A stretch of 64,000 bases of DNA from assembly GCA_026414565.1 (NCBI GenBank), contig JAOAIT010000018.1:62001-126000 (forward strand). Reading direction: 5' to 3'. A model generated the notes under the pieces. It ran no database searches and was not told where the DNA came from. It was given only the letters and a program-made list of their open reading frames with translations. Positions 35,431 through 44,892 of this stretch are shown one piece after another; the first letter of the stretch is position 1, and each line of letters starts with the position of its first letter. Origin of the DNA: Verrucomicrobiia bacterium. GTDB lineage: Bacteria > Verrucomicrobiota > Verrucomicrobiia > Limisphaerales > Fontisphaeraceae. The position numbers and the translations under genes are program-made.

Positions 35431-35838
35431 GTGAACAATCCACCTGCAGGAGATGAGAAAGCACACGGCAGGCCGAATAGCGTTTTGGCCGGGGGTTGGC
35501 GCTGGTTGCGGACGCTGGCCCTGCTGGCCCTGGGAAGCTGGCTCATAACCCACCTGCTGGATTATTCTGCCCGCACAGCAGCCGAAACGAAAAAGCCGGC
35601 AGGCATGGTTTTAGGCATGCTGCATGGAGCCTGCATGCCGGCCACCTGGCCCATGCTGGTGTTGGGCAAGGACACCGTGATTTATGCCCCAAACAATGAC
35701 GGTCGTCCTTACAAGCTGGGCTACACGCTGGGGGTAAATCTCTGCGGGGCGGTATTTTTCGGTTTGTGGTTTTGGAGATGGCAGCGCTGGCGGCAGGGAC
35801 GAAAACCAGCATCATGCCAGGCCGCGAAGGCGTCGTAA
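35431..35838 (+). CDS. Small membrane protein of unknown function
   Basis: A 135-residue protein starting at a GTG, with AGAAGG just upstream. Two membrane helices are predicted: residues about 26-45 (LRTLALLALGSWLITHLL) and 100-120 (LGVNLCGAVFFGLWFWRW). Between them, a loop contains GMVLGMLHGACMPATWPMLVLG and NNDGRPYKLGYTLG. I do not recognise the family with confidence. Coding potential is supported by a clean hydrophobicity pattern. Its last 27 nt overlap the convergent end of the vWA/GATase-like gene. The function is unknown and it may not be linked to its neighbours. Confidence 0.55.
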   Translation: MNNPPAGDEKAHGRPNSVLAGGWRWLRTLALLALGSWLITHLLDYSARTAAETKKPAGMVLGMLHGACMPATWPMLVLGKDTVIYAPNNDGRPYKLGYTLGVNLCGAVFFGLWFWRWQRWRQGRKPASCQAAKAS

Positions 35839-38157
35839 AATCCATTCGGCGGTAAGCAGGCCGATGATGGCCGCCAGCAGCCAGGCGTTATCCCACATGG
35901 GTTTGCGCCTTAATTCCACCGTGGGGGGAGGAGCCGAGCCAAACAGCGGCCGCAGGTCTTTGTATTGAGTGGTTTGGGTGTCCAGGGCGCGGCCATGTGT
36001 GAGTCGCGCCAGGGTGGCCAGTGATTCAGGACGGGCCCGGACATCGAGCATTTCTTTGTCCAGTTCTTCGACCACAACGAGTTGTTTGTCTTCACCCAGT
36101 TTGATGCCGCGCAAGGAAGCCTCAGCGCGCAGCGTGAAATCCCCGGCCACAGGCATGGGAAGGCGGGCGCGGAAAGCCTGCAAGGCGGGATCATATTCTG
36201 CCTGAGCCAGTCGCTCCACGGTGCCGGGGGCGGAGAGCGCCAACCGGACTTCGGCGGCGGCGGCAGGGCGTCCGGTGGCGTCGCGCACGTGGACAAGGGG
36301 TTCTAGAGTGGCGCCAGGGTGGAGAGGCGCCGGAGGCAATTCCACCACCACGGGGTTGTTGGTGCGGCCGAGGCGGTTGGCGGCGAGCCAGCGGACGGCG
36401 TTGATCCAGAAACGGCGATAATAACGCTGATCGCAGTTGTATTCTGTCCAGAATCCCTGGGGATTGAGCAATTCGCCCCAGAGGGTTTCAAAGTCTTTAC
36501 CCCAGGAGCGGGTGATGTCGGAGGTGAAGGCCATGGTGCGGCCTTTGCCGATTTCCTGAACGGCCAGCACCACCAGGGGGCCGTCCGCGTTGCGCTCGGT
36601 GGGGTGCACGGCCAGGACCGTGGCGCCGGGTTTGGCGCGATTGACGCGGTTGAGACCATAGAGCAGGGGCAGGCGGGTGGTCCACATGGCGGTGGTTTCT
36701 TCGCGGGTGGCTCCGAGGGCAATCAGGGGATGATTCCAAGCTGGCTGGGGCAGGGCCATGCGAAAGGGTTGATTCAGGGTGTCATTGCTGGATTCCATGG
36801 CTACGGGAATCAGGCGATCCAGAGGGGTGCGATGGTATCCGCCGGTGCCGAAGGCAGATTTACCGCCTATCATAACAAAACCGCCGCCGTGTTCCTCCAC
36901 CCACTTGACGGTATAATCCAATTGTTCCTGGGAGAACATATCCTTGGGGATGTCACTATGAATGACCACATCAAAAAGCTGCAGTTCTTCCAAGGTGCGG
37001 GGATAACCTTTGGTCAGATGCTCCACGGGATAGATCTCATCACCGGGTTGGATGTCGGCTTCCGGGATGAACCCCCCCTGAAATCCACGAAATCGAGTGC
37101 GATAAAGAACTTTGACCTTGATGTGCGGGTCACTTTCCAGGGCGGTTTTGAGGTAGCGCCATTCGGGTTGAGGGGCATTGTCCTGCATGGGAGTGCCCTC
37201 CATGTAAAGGACGCGCAGGGTGGCATCGGTGGCTTCCAATCCAAAGGCGCGGCGATTGTTGGAGGGCAGCCATTCGCCGGGCTCGGGAGGGACAAACACA
37301 TTATAGATTTCGTACTGGCGCGAAGGAGGCCGAAACTCAAATTCGACATGCTGACGCCCGCCGCTCAACAATACGGTTTGTTCGGCGAGAACCCGCTGGA
37401 GCTGACGAATCTGGACCCGGCGTGAAAAGCCGGCAAAGCCGGGAGAGGAAAGGGTGGCCACGATGCGGGCGGGCGCATTGGAGCCGACCGGACGGCGCAC
37501 CTGCACGTTTTCCACCACAATGTCCCGCATTTCATTGGTGGTGCCCACACAAATGGTGTGGATGGGGATGCCCTTGCGCCGAAACCAGCGGGAGAGGGAG
37601 AGAAAATCTCCCTTCTCTGTTTCGCCGCCGTCGGTGCACAGGATGACGGCGGCGGGAGGCGCGGAGGCGGTGGTATTCCAGAGCGTTTCCAGGGCGACGG
37701 AAATGGCAGTGGCCGATCCGGTGGCGGCAAGACCCGAAAATACTTGGGCCTGAAACGAGGCGGTGTTCGTTAAAGGGCGGAGGGAGGCATCAAAAGCGTA
37801 TGGCAGGATTTGCACGTGGCGCGGGGCCAGCGGGAGCAGATGTTGGCCGAGCCACTCCTGGGCTTCAGCCAGCCGACCATCCGGATCGGCGTCGTGCAGA
37901 GACATGCTGCGAGACGTGTCGAGGAGAACTGCCACCCGCAATGGGGGCTGCTGTTCCACCCGATCCACCCATTGAGGATTCAGCCAACACAGGAAGGCCA
38001 GCCCCAATGCTGTTAGGCGCAGCAATACGAGGGTGAAACGCGTCCAGCGGCCCGGACGCCCTACCGATGTCTGGTAGCTCCACCACACCAGCAGCAGCAC
38101 CAATCCGCCGCCCGCCGCCAGCCCCCACCAGGGGGGTGTATAACCAAACTCAATCAC
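35812..38157 (-). CDS. vWA-domain membrane protein with class I glutamine-amidotransferase-like fold
   Basis: A 781-residue membrane protein. Two helices (residues 12-26 and 42-58) precede a von Willebrand A domain with MIDAS DTSRSMSLHD (80-89). A middle region contains the flavodoxin/GATase-like stretch LFDVVIHSDIPKDMFSQEQL ... EHGGGFVMIGGKSAFGTGGY, which is not expected to be catalytically active because the GATase Cys is not evident. Beta-sandwich repeats follow, and the protein ends in one helix (WLLAAIIGLLTAEWILRRL). Such proteins accompany MoxR/DUF58 genes in many bacteria, where periplasmic chaperone or assembly roles are discussed. It starts 3 nt after the DUF4175-like gene and is the last gene of the cluster. 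Confidence 0.8.
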   Translation of the reverse strand: MIEFGYTPPWWGLAAGGGLVLLLVWWSYQTSVGRPGRWTRFTLVLLRLTALGLAFLCWLNPQWVDRVEQQPPLRVAVLLDTSRSMSLHDADPDGRLAEAQEWLGQHLLPLAPRHVQILPYAFDASLRPLTNTASFQAQVFSGLAATGSATAISVALETLWNTTASAPPAAVILCTDGGETEKGDFLSLSRWFRRKGIPIHTICVGTTNEMRDIVVENVQVRRPVGSNAPARIVATLSSPGFAGFSRRVQIRQLQRVLAEQTVLLSGGRQHVEFEFRPPSRQYEIYNVFVPPEPGEWLPSNNRRAFGLEATDATLRVLYMEGTPMQDNAPQPEWRYLKTALESDPHIKVKVLYRTRFRGFQGGFIPEADIQPGDEIYPVEHLTKGYPRTLEELQLFDVVIHSDIPKDMFSQEQLDYTVKWVEEHGGGFVMIGGKSAFGTGGYHRTPLDRLIPVAMESSNDTLNQPFRMALPQPAWNHPLIALGATREETTAMWTTRLPLLYGLNRVNRAKPGATVLAVHPTERNADGPLVVLAVQEIGKGRTMAFTSDITRSWGKDFETLWGELLNPQGFWTEYNCDQRYYRRFWINAVRWLAANRLGRTNNPVVVELPPAPLHPGATLEPLVHVRDATGRPAAAAEVRLALSAPGTVERLAQAEYDPALQAFRARLPMPVAGDFTLRAEASLRGIKLGEDKQLVVVEELDKEMLDVRARPESLATLARLTHGRALDTQTTQYKDLRPLFGSAPPPTVELRRKPMWDNAWLLAAIIGLLTAEWILRRLRGLA

Positions 38158-38160
38158 TGC

Positions 38161-40863
38161 TTATTCCTGGTGAGACAGACGTTTCAGGTACTCCTGGATG
38201 ACGTGCTGATATTCCTTGGGATAATCCTCGGCAGAAGTATCGGTTAGACGGAGATCGTCCCCCACCAATTTTTCCAGCTTGGATGCCACCGTGTTCAAGC
38301 CGTAACCACCCTCGCGCGCCTGGGTTAAACCTTGTCCGGGCTGGCCGCCCTTCAGGCTCTGAGCCGCGTTTTTCATTTGGTTTGCAGCTTGATTCATCAG
38401 AGTGGCAACATTGTGTCCCACCCGTCCGTCCTTGCCGGCCAGTGTGGCGAGCTTTTGCGCAACGGCATCAGCCTGTTGTCCCAATTGTTCTTGCTGTTGT
38501 GCCAGTTGCGGCAATTGCTGGGAGGCATCCGCTTGTTGGCCATTACCCTGACCTGGCCGCCCTTGCTGGCCAGTATTGCGCCCTTTGCCTGCTTGTTGGG
38601 CTTGCTGCCCCTGTTGTCCCTGCTGGCCCTGTTGTCCCTGCTGGCCCTGTTGTCCCTGCTGGCCCTGTTGTCCCTGCTGGCCCTGTTGTCCCTGCTGGCC
38701 CTGTTGTCCCTGCTGGCCCTGTTGCCCCTGCTGGCCCTGTTGCCCCTGCTGGCCTTGCTGGGTTTGTTGGCTTTCAGCGGACTGGTTTTGAGCGGCCATA
38801 TTTTCCAAGAGGTTTTGCATGGCTTCCGTCAGCGCAGCTTGTGCCTGGCTTAATTGGTGGACCTGCTGCGCCAATTCAGCCATCTCCTGACCCGTGGCCT
38901 GGGCCTGCTGCTCCTGCCGCTGACGGATGGCTTCCAAGGCCAGACGCACGGCCTGATTTTGGGGCTGGCCTGCTTGTTGAGGTTGGAGGGGCAGGTCTTG
39001 AAGCTCTGGCATGTGCTTAAGAGCCTGGTACATATTGGCGAGAGCGCGCTCTTCATGGGGTAGTGCCTCGGATGGTTTTTGCTTTTCCAGAGCGTTGGCG
39101 GCCTGACGCATTTCATTGACGGCTGCATCCATTTGCTGGCGGGTTGCTTGGGGGGCGTCCACGGCATTCAAAGCGTCACGATAGGCCTCCGCAAAATCAG
39201 CGGCAGCTTGCTGCCGTTGAGAAAGCTCCCGGGCGGCTTCGGGACGGGGTTGCTGGGGAAGGGCGCGGGTGTCGGCAATAAGCTGCTTTTGCACGGTAAG
39301 CAGATTTAATTTGGGCGGTGGCGGGGGTTGCGGTTGCGAAGCAAGACCTGAGTCTGTCGGGGTGGCATTTGGACGGAGGGATGGCCGGGTTACCTCAATA
39401 AAATAGACCTTGGATTTGCCGAGGCCAGGCCCGTCGAGCGTGTTGTTGTCCTCGGCTTCAGCGTAATAAGCTGCCACTTCGTACTCGCGCAGCCCCAGTT
39501 CAGCAATCGAAAGCGAGGTGCTGGCCTGGATTTCACCTTTGCCTGTGGATTTGCCCTGGAGGACGCGAGTTTGTTCAGGCTGTCCCAGCTTGTGATACTT
39601 AAGGCGGATTTCGCGGAGGCCAAAATCATCGGAAGCGGACACGGTAATGGGAAGGATGGCATCGGCGGCAAGGCTGAGGTCCCTGGCGGGAGCAGTGATT
39701 TCCACCAGCGGTGGCTCGTCCGGCAGGGCATGGATGCGGTGCGGGACAGCGTTGGAGCCGAGGTGTTGGCGGCGATCGGTTAGTTCAATCCAATACCTGG
39801 CGTTGGTGGTAACGGTGAAAGCAGTTTTCCATGTTACATCACCCTCGGGCACAAGGGGGATGGGCGCTTGATGGTGATCAAAGATTAGGCGAGCGCTCGC
39901 CAGCGGGACGTTGGGTTTAATCTGTAAGGTGATGGTGGAAGCCCGCAATACGTTAAGATTGGGGAGAGACTGCTGGAAGGGAGGAAGGCCGGTATAAGAA
40001 GGCATGGCCACGTTAATTTGAAACTCCTGTACTTCCGGGGGGATATAAGGCAGGACTTGGTAATCCGGGGAGCGGGCATCTCCTCCCGTGACATGATAGA
40101 AAAGTGGGTTGCGCACGTTACGCAGCGTAAAGGAAAGGTTGCCCTTTTCGTTGGTGGTCAGCACTTTTTGCTGCCAGACGTCCTGGCCGAGCTCCCGCCA
40201 GTGCAGCAGAGGGCGTTTGGGCTGGCGGCCGGTGAATTCGCAAGTAATTTCCAGATCACGTCCCATGGGGATTTCGATATTGCCGGGCAAGACGCTGACC
40301 CGGGTATAGGTTTCGGGGGTCCAAGGGGTGGCGAGGCGCTTCAGTGCGGTATCCGGCCGGGTGGAAAGAAAGATGAAACCTGCCAGGGAGAGCAGGGCGA
40401 CAGCCAGAAGGGCCAGGGGCCAGCGGAGTTGACGTTGGTAGGGGACATGTACACGCCGCAAGGTGCGTGCAGCTTCAGCTTCCAGCGCAGCCACCAATTC
40501 CGGCTCGTAAGCCTGGGTGGGACGGCGCTGGCCGGAGACGTACTCAGCGGCTGTTGACACAGTGCAGCCAAGCGCAGGGTCCTGAGCTTCGGCATCCAAG
40601 GCCGCCTCCTTGAATGAGGCCGGATGTTGAAAGAGCCGGAGCACTCTGATTAGGCCGGTGGCGGTGAGGGCACCTAATCCCACCAGCACCAACAACCGCA
40701 GGCCTGGCGGCAGGGCCAGGTGGTAATCGGCAATGGCGGCAACAATAAACAGGAGGAGCAACAAGGCCAGTTGCAGGGTCAGCCACGCCAGCCGTCGGTT
40801 GCGGTCTTTTTGACGGGCAGCGGCAGCCAGCCGGGCGGCGGCAATTTGTTCAACGGGATTCAT
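38161..40863 (-). CDS. DUF4175-like membrane protein with Gln/Gly repeat
   Basis: A 900-residue protein. Three membrane helices lie at about residues 26-46, 55-75 and 147-166. A long periplasmic region has beta-rich segments ([59 protein letters not shown]). From about residue 530 it becomes helical and very Gln-rich. Residues 704-751 are encoded by eight 18-bp units and read as repeated QQG. The helical tail ends [18 protein letters not shown]. It resembles the DUF4175 proteins found in MoxR-DUF58-vWA clusters. The start at 40863 overlaps the upstream vWA gene (ATGA). The function is unknown; a scaffold or cargo-binding role is speculative. Confidence 0.75.
38611..38754. repeat. Eight-copy 18-bp tandem repeat coding (QQG)n
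   Basis: Eight back-to-back units of CTGTTGTCCCTGCTGGCC run from 38611 to 38754. Units 1-6 are identical; units 7 and 8 differ by one T-to-C change. Because 18 is a multiple of three, gain or loss of units keeps the reading frame of the DUF4175-like gene. Near-identity at the codon level points to slippage or recent amplification. Confidence 0.95.
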
Positions 40864-42962
40864 GGTACGGTGCGGTTGCCAACTATCGTCTCGGCGAGCA
40901 TGAAAAGCAACCCCGCCAGCAGCAGGAACCGCCACCACTCGCGGGGGCCCGTGTCACTTCCAAATAACAAGGCAGCAGGAGAGTGTGGAGCGGGCGTTTC
41001 AGCGCGGACCAGCCGATGCTGCATTTCCTGCGGCGTGAAGGCGGTGAGATCCGATTCTTCAGCGGGGACATTGGCAGCCATTCGATAGAGTTCGCGGCCC
41101 TGGGCATCGCGCAGGGAATAAATACCGGGCAGGGGCATGGCAAGTTGGTGAACGGCACCCTGGTCATCTGCTTGCACCTCCAGTGGGCGACCGTCCGGCT
41201 GCACCCATTTAAGGGAGGCTCGGAGATCTTCCCTCTTCAACGTGAGGCTGGCTTCTGTTCCCGCGAGGCAGGCAGGGGGACGGCTGCCTTCGAGGTCCAC
41301 GCTGCGGCCAGCCAGAAAGCGGGCGGTACTGTGCAGCCAGGGCACAAAGGTTTTGTGGCGGGGCCAGTCATGCCATTGGGTGTCCGCGGTGGCATTAAAG
41401 AAGAGGATCATACCTTGACCGAGCCGGCGCAGGAGCATGGCCGGCTGGCCGTCCTGAAAACGCGCGAGCACCTGGTCACCATCACGCGCCTGAAGAGCCA
41501 GGCGTTTGTTAAAGCGAGCCACTGAGGGGCTGCCGCTGTTGGGTTGGCGGAAGGGGGCAAAGAGAGGAGAACTTTTTTCCCATTCCCAAATGCGCCAATC
41601 CAAATCGGTGGCCGATTCAGGAAGCCCCCACTGCCCGGGAAGCAAGGCGCCCAGCTCTGTCGTGTAATGATTGACACTGATGCCCTCCCCAGCGAAAAGC
41701 AGGAGGCCGCCCCCTTTCTCAACGAAAGAAAGCAAGGCATCGGCCGCTCCAGGTGGCCAGCGTTTAAGTCCCGGTGCCATTACCAGGGCATAAGGTCCGT
41801 GGGGGGTGCCAGTGGCCAGCCGGTGGATGAAGGCGTCCGGCGGCGTGGTATCCACAGCGAAACCACTCAACCCGCTGTTCGTCTGGCCAAAATGGGGATC
41901 GAGAGCGGTGCGGAGGTAGAAGGTCTCTTCCTGATATATTTTAACGCCTGCCCGTGGCTCGAGCAGGAGGACAGGGATAAGGGGCGGAATAAAAACGGCC
42001 TGGAAACGTGTGTTGTCGGCCGGCAAGGGATCGGCGGTTTCGAGATGAACAGCAACGCTATGCCAGCCGGCGGTGAGGCGCGGTAGGGTGAAGTCCAGGT
42101 TGCTGTGAGTGCCCCCGGGCAGCAGAAGGGTGCGAGAGGCGGTTAATTTGCCATCCACCAGGAGTTGGGCGGTGACGGGGCCGGCGTCTTCTGTGTCAAA
42201 GTTGGTAATCAAAACTGTCGAGGTTTGCCCGCTGCCCCCAGCAAGGTTGACTTCGGTGACGGCCAAGTTGGGGGTTAGGGGATCGCTGACGGGCAGCCAG
42301 TGCACGCGCACATCGGCGGGCAAAGACGTGTGCGGCACCCGTTTGCAGGAGGTACGCTGGAGGTCACTGATGATGTACAAGCTGTTGGTGGACCGCGAGC
42401 CTTCCTGGGCGAAAAAACGGGCAGCCAGATCGAGGGCGTCTCCCATTTCCCCTCCAGCCATGACAGGTTGGGCAGCATCGAGGGCCTTCAGGGTATCAGC
42501 CGCAGGGCCGGGGGTGGCAAGCCATTCGGCATGGCCGCCAAAGACGAGCAGGCCAACGCGGGCCTCGCGGGGCAGTTGGTAAAGGATTTTTCGGGCTGCG
42601 GCACGGGCGCGGTCCCAGCGGCTGCCTTCAGGATCACGGGCTGTCAGGCTGAGGGATCGGTCCAGCAATAACACAGCCAACTGCGGGCGAGCGCCGGCAG
42701 CAGCGGCGCTTTGTTGAGGCAGGAATGGGCGCGCAAAAGCCAGCACCAAAAGGATGACGATCAGGAGGCGCAGCAGGAGCAGGAGCCAGTGGCGCAGTTT
42801 GCGGCTGCGTACGGCTTCCTCATCGAGAAAGTCAAAGAAACGCAGCGTGCTGAACTTCATCCGGCGCTGCCGCGTCTTGAACATGAGGTGGATGAGAATG
42901 GGGATGCCCACGGCCACGAGTCCACCCAGCAGGGCAGCATTGAGGAATGACGGCCAGAGCAT
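40860..42962 (-). CDS. BatA-like vWA membrane protein
   Basis: A 700-residue protein with the N-terminal double-helix region typical of BatA proteins: helix 1 at residues 7-27 (LNAALLGGLVAVGIPILIHL), the basic MKFSTLRFFDFL segment, and helix 2 at 58-78. A vWA domain follows with MIDAS-like DRSLSLTARD (101-110). The middle and C-terminal parts are beta-sandwich modules plus a flavodoxin-like stretch (YALVMAPGLKRWPPGAADAL). A final helix is near residue 680 (FLLLAGLLFMLAETIVG). It starts 9 nt after DUF58 and overlaps the DUF4175-like gene by 4 nt. In Bacteroides the Bat genes affect aerotolerance; whether that applies here is unknown. Confidence 0.83.
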   Translation of the reverse strand: MLWPSFLNAALLGGLVAVGIPILIHLMFKTRQRRMKFSTLRFFDFLDEEAVRSRKLRHWLLLLLRLLIVILLVLAFARPFLPQQSAAAAGARPQLAVLLLDRSLSLTARDPEGSRWDRARAAARKILYQLPREARVGLLVFGGHAEWLATPGPAADTLKALDAAQPVMAGGEMGDALDLAARFFAQEGSRSTNSLYIISDLQRTSCKRVPHTSLPADVRVHWLPVSDPLTPNLAVTEVNLAGGSGQTSTVLITNFDTEDAGPVTAQLLVDGKLTASRTLLLPGGTHSNLDFTLPRLTAGWHSVAVHLETADPLPADNTRFQAVFIPPLIPVLLLEPRAGVKIYQEETFYLRTALDPHFGQTNSGLSGFAVDTTPPDAFIHRLATGTPHGPYALVMAPGLKRWPPGAADALLSFVEKGGGLLLFAGEGISVNHYTTELGALLPGQWGLPESATDLDWRIWEWEKSSPLFAPFRQPNSGSPSVARFNKRLALQARDGDQVLARFQDGQPAMLLRRLGQGMILFFNATADTQWHDWPRHKTFVPWLHSTARFLAGRSVDLEGSRPPACLAGTEASLTLKREDLRASLKWVQPDGRPLEVQADDQGAVHQLAMPLPGIYSLRDAQGRELYRMAANVPAEESDLTAFTPQEMQHRLVRAETPAPHSPAALLFGSDTGPREWWRFLLLAGLLFMLAETIVGNRTVP

Positions 42963-42971
42963 AACGGTGAA

Positions 42972-43859
42972 CTACAGGGCGTTGCGTTTTTCGAGGTAGG
43001 CCATCAGGGCGAAATCCAGCGGCTGATCCGTGCGAAAGAGGTGATAATCGGCTTCGAGTTTAATGCATTCACCGCGCAATTCGTCGCAGTAGCGATGCAA
43101 GCGCTCAAGGTATTTCTGGCGGAAAGCCTCTGCGTGGACGGGTTTTTCTTCCGCGGTTTCGCTGTCCTGCAGCAAAAGGGCGCCGCGATAGGGAAAATCC
43201 AGCTCCTCAGGAGAGAGGAGGTGCATGACGATGGTTTCCTGCTGCTGGGCATGGAGTTGGCGCAGCAGCTCGAAGGCAGTGTGGCCAGCGGCAAAGAAGT
43301 CGGAAATGATTACGGCCACTCCGCGACGGCGAAGGCTTTGCACAATTCCCAGAAGATCCGGGCCGATCAGGGTGGGGCCGCCTGCCTGCAATTGGGCCAG
43401 GACCTGAAAGATTTCTTCCGCATGAAAGCGCGCGGCCTTGGGTGGCACGGCCTGGCTGGCTTGAGCCGAGAAGAGGGCCAGACCGGGGGCGTCGTGCTGA
43501 TGAGTCATCAGGTAGGCCAGGACGGCTGCCAGCATGCGGCCATAGAGAAATTTGTTGGCATCGCCCTGGCCAAAGTCCATGGAGGCGCTGGTATCGAGAA
43601 AGATCTGACAGGTGAGGTTGGTATCGTCCTCGAATTGTTTAACGTAATATTTGTCGCAGCGGGCCCAGAGTTTCCAGTCGATGTAGCTGGGGTCGTCCCC
43701 GGTGGCGTAGGGGCGGTAGGCGGAGAACTCTGTGCTGTAACCCAAAAAGGGGCTGCGATGCAACCCTTCCAGAAAGCCCTCCACCACAGTGCGGGCCAGC
43801 AGTGACAAATCGTCAATGGCAGCCAGGGCGTTTGGGTTGAGGGCGAAGGTGGACGGCAT
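42972..43859 (-). CDS. DUF58 domain protein
   Basis: A 295-residue cytoplasmic vWA-related protein. The DUF58 hallmark is SAYRPYATGDDPSYIDWKLW (about residues 46-64). The vWA MIDAS follows as IFLDTSASMDFG (89-93), with VAVIISDFFAAG downstream. DUF58 proteins are near-constant partners of MoxR AAA ATPases and are thought to recruit them or their client. The ATG at 43859 was preferred over an in-frame TTG at 43874. The gap to the moxR stop is 16 nt and to the next gene 9 nt, so it belongs to the same operon. Confidence 0.9.
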   Translation of the reverse strand: MPSTFALNPNALAAIDDLSLLARTVVEGFLEGLHRSPFLGYSTEFSAYRPYATGDDPSYIDWKLWARCDKYYVKQFEDDTNLTCQIFLDTSASMDFGQGDANKFLYGRMLAAVLAYLMTHQHDAPGLALFSAQASQAVPPKAARFHAEEIFQVLAQLQAGGPTLIGPDLLGIVQSLRRRGVAVIISDFFAAGHTAFELLRQLHAQQQETIVMHLLSPEELDFPYRGALLLQDSETAEEKPVHAEAFRQKYLERLHRYCDELRGECIKLEADYHLFRTDQPLDFALMAYLEKRNAL

Positions 43860-43875
43860 AATCGCAGGCGGCAAA

Positions 43876-44892
43876 TTATGGTTTTACGTCGGCGAGCAGT
43901 TTTTCAATCAATTCAGGGACAGAAACTTTCTGGGCTCGGGCATTAAAATTGATCAAGATGCGATGACTGAGCACCTGACGGGCGACGGAGCGGACGCCTT
44001 CATAATCAGCGCAAAGTTTGCCAGAGACCGCCGCCCGGGCTTTGGCCCCCAGGATGAGGTACTGGGATGCGCGGGGACTGGCGCCCCAACGGACGAATTC
44101 TTTGATGTATTTAGGGGCGGCAGGGTCATCGGGGCGGGTGCGGGAGACCAGACGGACGGCGTATCGCACCACCTCCGTGGAGGCGGGGACGGCCCGGATT
44201 AGTTTTTGAATCTCCAGGACTTCCGCCGCATTGAGCACTGGCTTGAGATCGGGGATGGCTGTGCCCGTGGTGTTCAACACCACTTGTTCCTCTTCCTCGT
44301 TGGAAGGGTAGCGGGTGATAATATTAAACATGAAACGATCGGCCTGGGCTTCGGGTAGAACGTACGTGCCCTCCATTTCGATGGGGTTTTGGGTGGCGAA
44401 AACGTGAAAGGGTTGGGGCAGGGGATAGGTGGTGTTGCCCACAGTAACTTCCCGTTCCTGCATCACCTGAAGCATGGCGGCCTGAGTTTTGGGAGGGGTG
44501 CGATTGATTTCATCGGCCAGAATGAGGTTGGCAAAGATGGGGCCTTTGAGGAATTCGACTTTGCGGCGGCCGGTTTCAGGGTCGTCCTGAATGATGTCGG
44601 TGCCGGTGATATCGGCCGGCATGAGATCCGGAGTGAATTGGATGCGGCTGAAGGACATATCCAGAACACGCCCCAAGGAGCGCACCAGCAATGTTTTGGC
44701 GAGGCCGGGCACACCCATGACGAGAGAATGGCCGCCGCAGAAAATTGTTAGGAGGACGTTGTCAATTACCTCCCGCTGGCCGACAATCACCTTGCCCAAT
44801 TCGTCCATTAAAGCCTTGCGCCGGGCCGTTAAACGTTCAATGGCTTCGACGGTTATGCGTTGGTCTGCATCGGCCATCAGGGACGTGCTCAT
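43876..44892 (-). CDS. MoxR-family AAA+ ATPase
   Basis: A 338-residue AAA+ ATPase of the MoxR family, whose members act as chaperones for assembly or metal insertion together with vWA-domain partners. Walker A is VMGVPGLAKTLLV (K66), the Walker B region is NLILADEINRTPPKTQAAML, sensor 1 is FATQNPIEMEGTYVLPEAQADRF, and sensor 2 is near ASPRASQYLILGAKA. These are textbook MoxR motifs. It is the first gene of the minus-strand cluster MoxR-DUF58-BatA-like-DUF4175-like-vWA. An alternative start MADADQ lies 15 nt downstream. No clear ribosome binding site or promoter was recognised upstream. Confidence 0.94.
   Translation of the reverse strand: MSTSLMADADQRITVEAIERLTARRKALMDELGKVIVGQREVIDNVLLTIFCGGHSLVMGVPGLAKTLLVRSLGRVLDMSFSRIQFTPDLMPADITGTDIIQDDPETGRRKVEFLKGPIFANLILADEINRTPPKTQAAMLQVMQEREVTVGNTTYPLPQPFHVFATQNPIEMEGTYVLPEAQADRFMFNIITRYPSNEEEEQVVLNTTGTAIPDLKPVLNAAEVLEIQKLIRAVPASTEVVRYAVRLVSRTRPDDPAAPKYIKEFVRWGASPRASQYLILGAKARAAVSGKLCADYEGVRSVARQVLSHRILINFNARAQKVSVPELIEKLLADVKP

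Follow-up and report, generated by a model that had tools for sequence, protein, structure and literature searches.

A Gly-Gln-Gln coding minisatellite as a likely flexible spacer in a DUF4175-type membrane protein

A gene for a DUF4175-type membrane protein in the 64-kb window, the whole stretch of DNA analysed here, contains an array of 17 identical Gly-Gln-Gln (GQQ) tripeptides. Sequence comparison and a structure model make it likely that this array is a coding minisatellite yielding a flexible spacer in a membrane-anchored protein, with the hydrophilic GQQ kept and its length tolerated. As the pattern of units suggests, slippage or unequal exchange may add, remove and homogenise 9-bp units and 18-bp pairs. 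The reading frame is never broken because the units are multiples of three. The uncharged and hydrophilic (Gly-Gln-Gln)n would act as a flexible spacer joining two long helical segments. The protein carrying it would be membrane-anchored, encoded beside a MoxR/VWA gene set and probably located outside the cytoplasm in its linker part. Selection would hold the linker hydrophilic; GQQ, once present, would stay GQQ, and wide changes in length would be tolerated.

The array is real. TRF reported a row at window positions 38603-38754 with a period of 18, 8.4 copies, 98% matches and a score of 283, which confirms the in-frame 18-bp array described in an earlier note on this DNA. That note had placed it at 38611-38754: the end holds, and the start was about one 9-bp unit late. 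The Gln/Gly linker proposed there is present in frame as (GQQ)17 on the minus strand, flanked by TQQ and AQQ (Table 1). The 18-bp dimer consists of the 9-bp units GGCCAGCAG and GGACAACAG. GGGCAACAG substitutes in two 5′ copies, the final unit is GGGCAGCAA, and the order of the units is ACACABABABABABABD. Codons six positions apart were identical in a fraction of 0.93. In 20,000 recodings of the same protein, with codon usage taken from the remainder of the gene, this fraction averaged 0.44 and never exceeded 0.73. The similarity of the units thus goes beyond selection on the protein alone, as had been claimed, and recent duplication or homogenisation is needed. The remaining two TRF rows of the window scored 52. 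Among 15 rows from 20 further stretches of the same genome (G000; 389,970 bp in total), the best other array had a score of 73.

With tandem coding units of at least about 9 bp that are homogeneous at synonymous sites, the array is an ordinary repeat type; coding minisatellites are already a known kind. It has in common with in-frame coding minisatellites and intragenic VNTRs of bacteria the units in multiples of three, the near-identical synonymous sites and an unequal copy number between relatives, here at species level. The host differs: it is a DUF4175 membrane protein and no known surface adhesin.

Table 1. Array and operon features in window coordinates.
Feature	Position	Strand	Basis
GATase1_like gene (PF07090), downstream in operon	35812..38157	-	Pfam; gene order in relatives
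DUF4175-type membrane protein gene, 900 aa from ATG at 40863	38161..40863	-	Pfam PF13779; start by alignment with relatives
(Gly-Gln-Gln)x17 array; 9-bp units, mostly 18-bp dimer	38602..38754	-	TRF, unit string and translation
Exact 18-bp periodicity, 116 bp, within GQQ array	38609..38724	-	Codon/period analysis
BatA N-terminal domain and VWA_2 gene, upstream in operon	40860..42962	-	Profile matches; gene order in relatives
DUF58 gene, upstream in operon	42972..43874	-	Pfam; gene order in relatives
MoxR-type AAA ATPase (AAA_3) gene, upstream in operon	43876..44892	-	Profile match; gene order in relatives

The open frame of the host gene extends to a GTG at 40938 (925 aa). The PF13779 profile matched with 36.9 bits, above the Pfam cut-off of 27.3, and covers only profile positions 190-334 of 825; the match bears out the earlier description as a DUF4175-like protein. 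The gene belongs to an operon with the order MoxR-DUF58-BatA-DUF4175-GATase1_like, all on the minus strand. The same-genus genome G001 keeps this order, as do 15 of 26 orthologue loci. Of the remaining 11, nine are truncated where a contig or locus ends, and two (L101 and L109) are without these neighbours although there is room for them. Hydropathy indicates three membrane segments at about residues 23-55, 54-78 and 146-170. With three such segments the linker would lie outside the cytoplasm, and the periplasmic location claimed before is probable on the basis of hydropathy.

A single-chain AlphaFold2 model of the window protein, built with 24 sequences, had a mean pLDDT of 78.7 and a pTM of 0.44. 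It begins with N-terminal helices, followed by domains rich in beta structure (about 187-491), by helices up to residue 698 and, further on, by helices at 780-867 and 883-899. Residues 698-777, between the helices 637-698 and 780-811, have a pLDDT below 50, a mere proxy for disorder. The GQQ tract (residues 704-754) lies entirely inside this segment, and the model suggests that the linker between the two long helices is probably disordered. A function could not be derived from the fold: among the 50 Foldseek matches listed, only Ig/fibronectin-III-type beta-sandwiches were found, with query TM-scores of 0.09-0.17. AdvA of Acinetobacter baumannii was the sole protein with the DUF4175 label met in the literature search. 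In the available part of the source, AdvA has this label and N-terminal membrane segments in common with the window protein (PMC7481262); no function of the window protein is derived from this likeness.

G001 was the one same-genus genome among 58 in the first search and consists of a single 4.7-Mb contig. Its orthologue (L081 8013-11705) is 79% identical to the window protein and has 126 GQQ at the same position, that is, 1134 bp with zero amino-acid changes. This was the longest array in the analysis. Its units are GGGCAACAA (85 copies), GGTCAGCAA (35), GGGCAGCAA (5) and GGTCAACAA (1). Among these four types, only GGGCAGCAA is common to the four types of the window. A third orthologue (G054) has 15 GQQ, an AQQ/GQQ/AQQ patch and 9 further GQQ.

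A low-complexity linker is present at the equivalent position in 23 orthologues besides those of G000 and G001. The resulting 25 rows comprise 23 of the 26 loci plus G000 and G001; L109, L114 and L116 were left out, being cut or too distant. The linkers are 37-430 aa long and rich in varied mixes of G, K, P, Q, E and D. Distant orthologues have a Gly-containing low-complexity linker with a composition other than GQQ. In a tree of 27 rows, the GQQ label needs 2 changes (bootstrap 2-3), a lower bound that carries no weight for the ancestor, as the three outgroup rows were chosen for bearing the array. Prokaryotic low-complexity regions resemble these linkers in the available part of one report: they are Gly-rich, probably disordered and conserved in position (PMC6821194). 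The GQQ tract is extreme among them in purity and length, with 126 identical tripeptides in G001.

At least four QQG units in the DNA were found in 11 of 486 genomes searched: 8 of 293 from the order and 4 of 194 from the phylum, with G000 in both counts. In nine of these genomes, the array is located in a DUF4175-like gene, and three subfamilies are involved. G000, G001 and G054 carry it in orthologues of the window gene. A larger, divergent subfamily includes G063 (52 GQQ), G005, G083, G252 and G039. The G083 protein had no Pfam match at 0.001 and owes its placement to a phmmer match with the window protein (1.7e-25), and G039 is a cut contig with the C-terminal part alone visible. Within this subfamily, L074 has its own five-gene set of like kind; four of these five genes are visible in L072, and the DUF4175 gene alone in L073. 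The third subfamily is represented by G315 with 14 GQQ. The G315 and G063 proteins score under the Pfam DUF4175 cut-off.

The G315 protein (L158:261-3035) has long poly-Gly and poly-Gln runs beside its GQQ. G000 encodes a relative of it, a second DUF4175-like protein without a GQQ tract. That protein (L132:11428-14640, G000:C15) contains ten consecutive Gly as well as Q-rich stretches. A restriction of GQQ to DUF4175 proteins was ruled out by a bactofilin of G307 (L157:1407-2126) with 6 GQQ in the C-terminal tail and by a Rho protein of G302 (L159:934-3012) with four QQG units in a long N-terminal low-complexity insertion. Literature on Gly-Gln-Gln with collagen yielded unrelated work only. 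The array was not found in literature on collagen-like proteins and Verrucomicrobia, on MoxR/DUF58 or on intragenic tandem repeats, judged from the listings.

Differences from the unit consensus were 185 synonymous and 9 nonsynonymous in eight array pieces of seven genomes. These counts are non-independent: units share descent, G005 enters twice with two contigs, and TRF favours similar units. Counted as distinct kinds, 19 synonymous differences stand against 7 nonsynonymous ones, of which 5 occur in G083 alone. The synonymous excess is significant against a random expectation of 5/27 (P = 2e-9) and of 1/3 (P = 4e-5). Array limits were set by TRF and not by protein purity, and G039 was excluded. 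Protein-level selection probably keeps GQQ, judging from these differences. The synonymous excess and the species-specific units together indicate that the DNA units turn over while the GQQ peptide is kept. On this sequence evidence, repeat turnover accounts for the identical DNA units. The 126 changeless repeats of G001 could alternatively reflect a tract that is simply very young.

Two congeneric species, with one genome compared for each, differ strongly in copy number (17 against 126 GQQ), in agreement with the earlier claim that this number can change in frame. This gap and the exact 116-bp periodic run, which is of a type that readily changes in length, would suit an adaptive tuning of length, in which the repeat number differs among cells or strains and adjusts how far the linker reaches or how stiff it is, as in a length-type contingency locus. 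The collagen-like protein Lcl of Legionella provides a precedent: in the available part of the report, the number of its Gly-X-Y repeats is polymorphic and shows a correlation with both binding and biofilm (PMC6460258). Still, such tuning appears rather unlikely for the window array. With 9-bp and 18-bp units the frame is never lost, so on/off switching by frameshift, a mark of contingency loci, is impossible. The window species and G001 are too distant, at their level of protein identity, to reveal fast change. The length of orthologue linkers is unconstrained, and the free variation of length and composition in these sequences argues against a tightly tuned length.

A more elaborate proposal starts from an ordered or self-associating rod or a condensate-forming segment, collagen-like or a Gln-zipper without proline. 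It would have been acquired separately in three DUF4175 subfamilies, and its repeat number, tuned by minisatellite expansion, would determine how far a MoxR/VWA envelope machine can reach. We regard this as improbable. The rise used for an estimate of the extended length is 0.29 nm per residue. If the proposal were true, 17 to 126 repeats would correspond to roughly 15 to 110 nm in the extended state.

A collagen-like rod, in which the Gly-X-Y tract would wind into a triple helix and make the protein a trimer, is very improbable. Gly occupies every third residue perfectly, without interruption in both (GQQ)17 of the window and the 126 repeats of G001, and the Pfam Collagen profile matched the tract with 33.4 bits against a cut-off of 27.2. 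Proline-rich X and Y positions stabilise the collagen helix, but the GQQ tract has no proline. NCBIfam collagen-adhesin models, the curated Scl2/Lcl ones, remained far under their cut-offs (43.2 of 325 and 27 of 500 bits). A Gly period of three exceeded shuffles in 11 of the 25 orthologue linkers (uncorrected p<=0.05; L104-L108 are close relatives). The other 14 had no significant period, and some favoured the opposite; Gly-X-Y is not kept in the orthologues. A conserved role as collagen triple helix is not supported. The window protein and Lcl, as described in the available part of its report, share a perfect Gly-X-Y register and a variable repeat number (PMC6460258). In the window protein, however, X and Y are always Gln, proline is absent, and the tract lies as a linker within a protein of the inner-membrane type. 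By the sequence tests made, the Gly period in orthologues and the curated models, it lies outside the Lcl family.

A wrong copy number, with the array collapsed or mis-counted in assembly, would be a further explanation and is highly improbable. G000 is an assembly of 71 contigs, and GQQ arrays can break genome assemblies: two contigs of G005 (L076:2-3316 and L077:3-782) both end inside such an array and look like halves of one gene broken in assembly. The window array, however, is internal to a 386-kb contig and exactly periodic over no more than 116 bp, and two synonymous variants mark its 5′ part. G001 carries a still longer array on its single contig. A function of the DNA or mRNA itself, for example through G-quadruplexes formed by the GGG that recurs every 9 bases in the coding strand, has next to no likelihood and is not supported as a conserved role, since the G3-loop pattern runs over 139 bp in the window, 282 bp in G001 and 337 bp in G063 but is missing from the 15-unit array of G054 and from G005 contig C367, is short elsewhere (12-39 bp), and the DNA units vary between species with GQQ constant.

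The arrays are also of use beyond the window. They form a clean natural series of 9 to 126 identical tripeptides at an equivalent place and in a like operon type. For an uncharacterised MoxR/VWA envelope protein, this series lets one ask what difference the length of the linker makes; it also suits the question of how coding minisatellites grow with the peptide staying pure. In 400 kb sampled from G001, the GQQ array ranks second by TRF score. A 470-bp unit with 2.2 copies and a TRF score of 1783, unrelated to GQQ, is located at L150:13683-14694 of the same genome.
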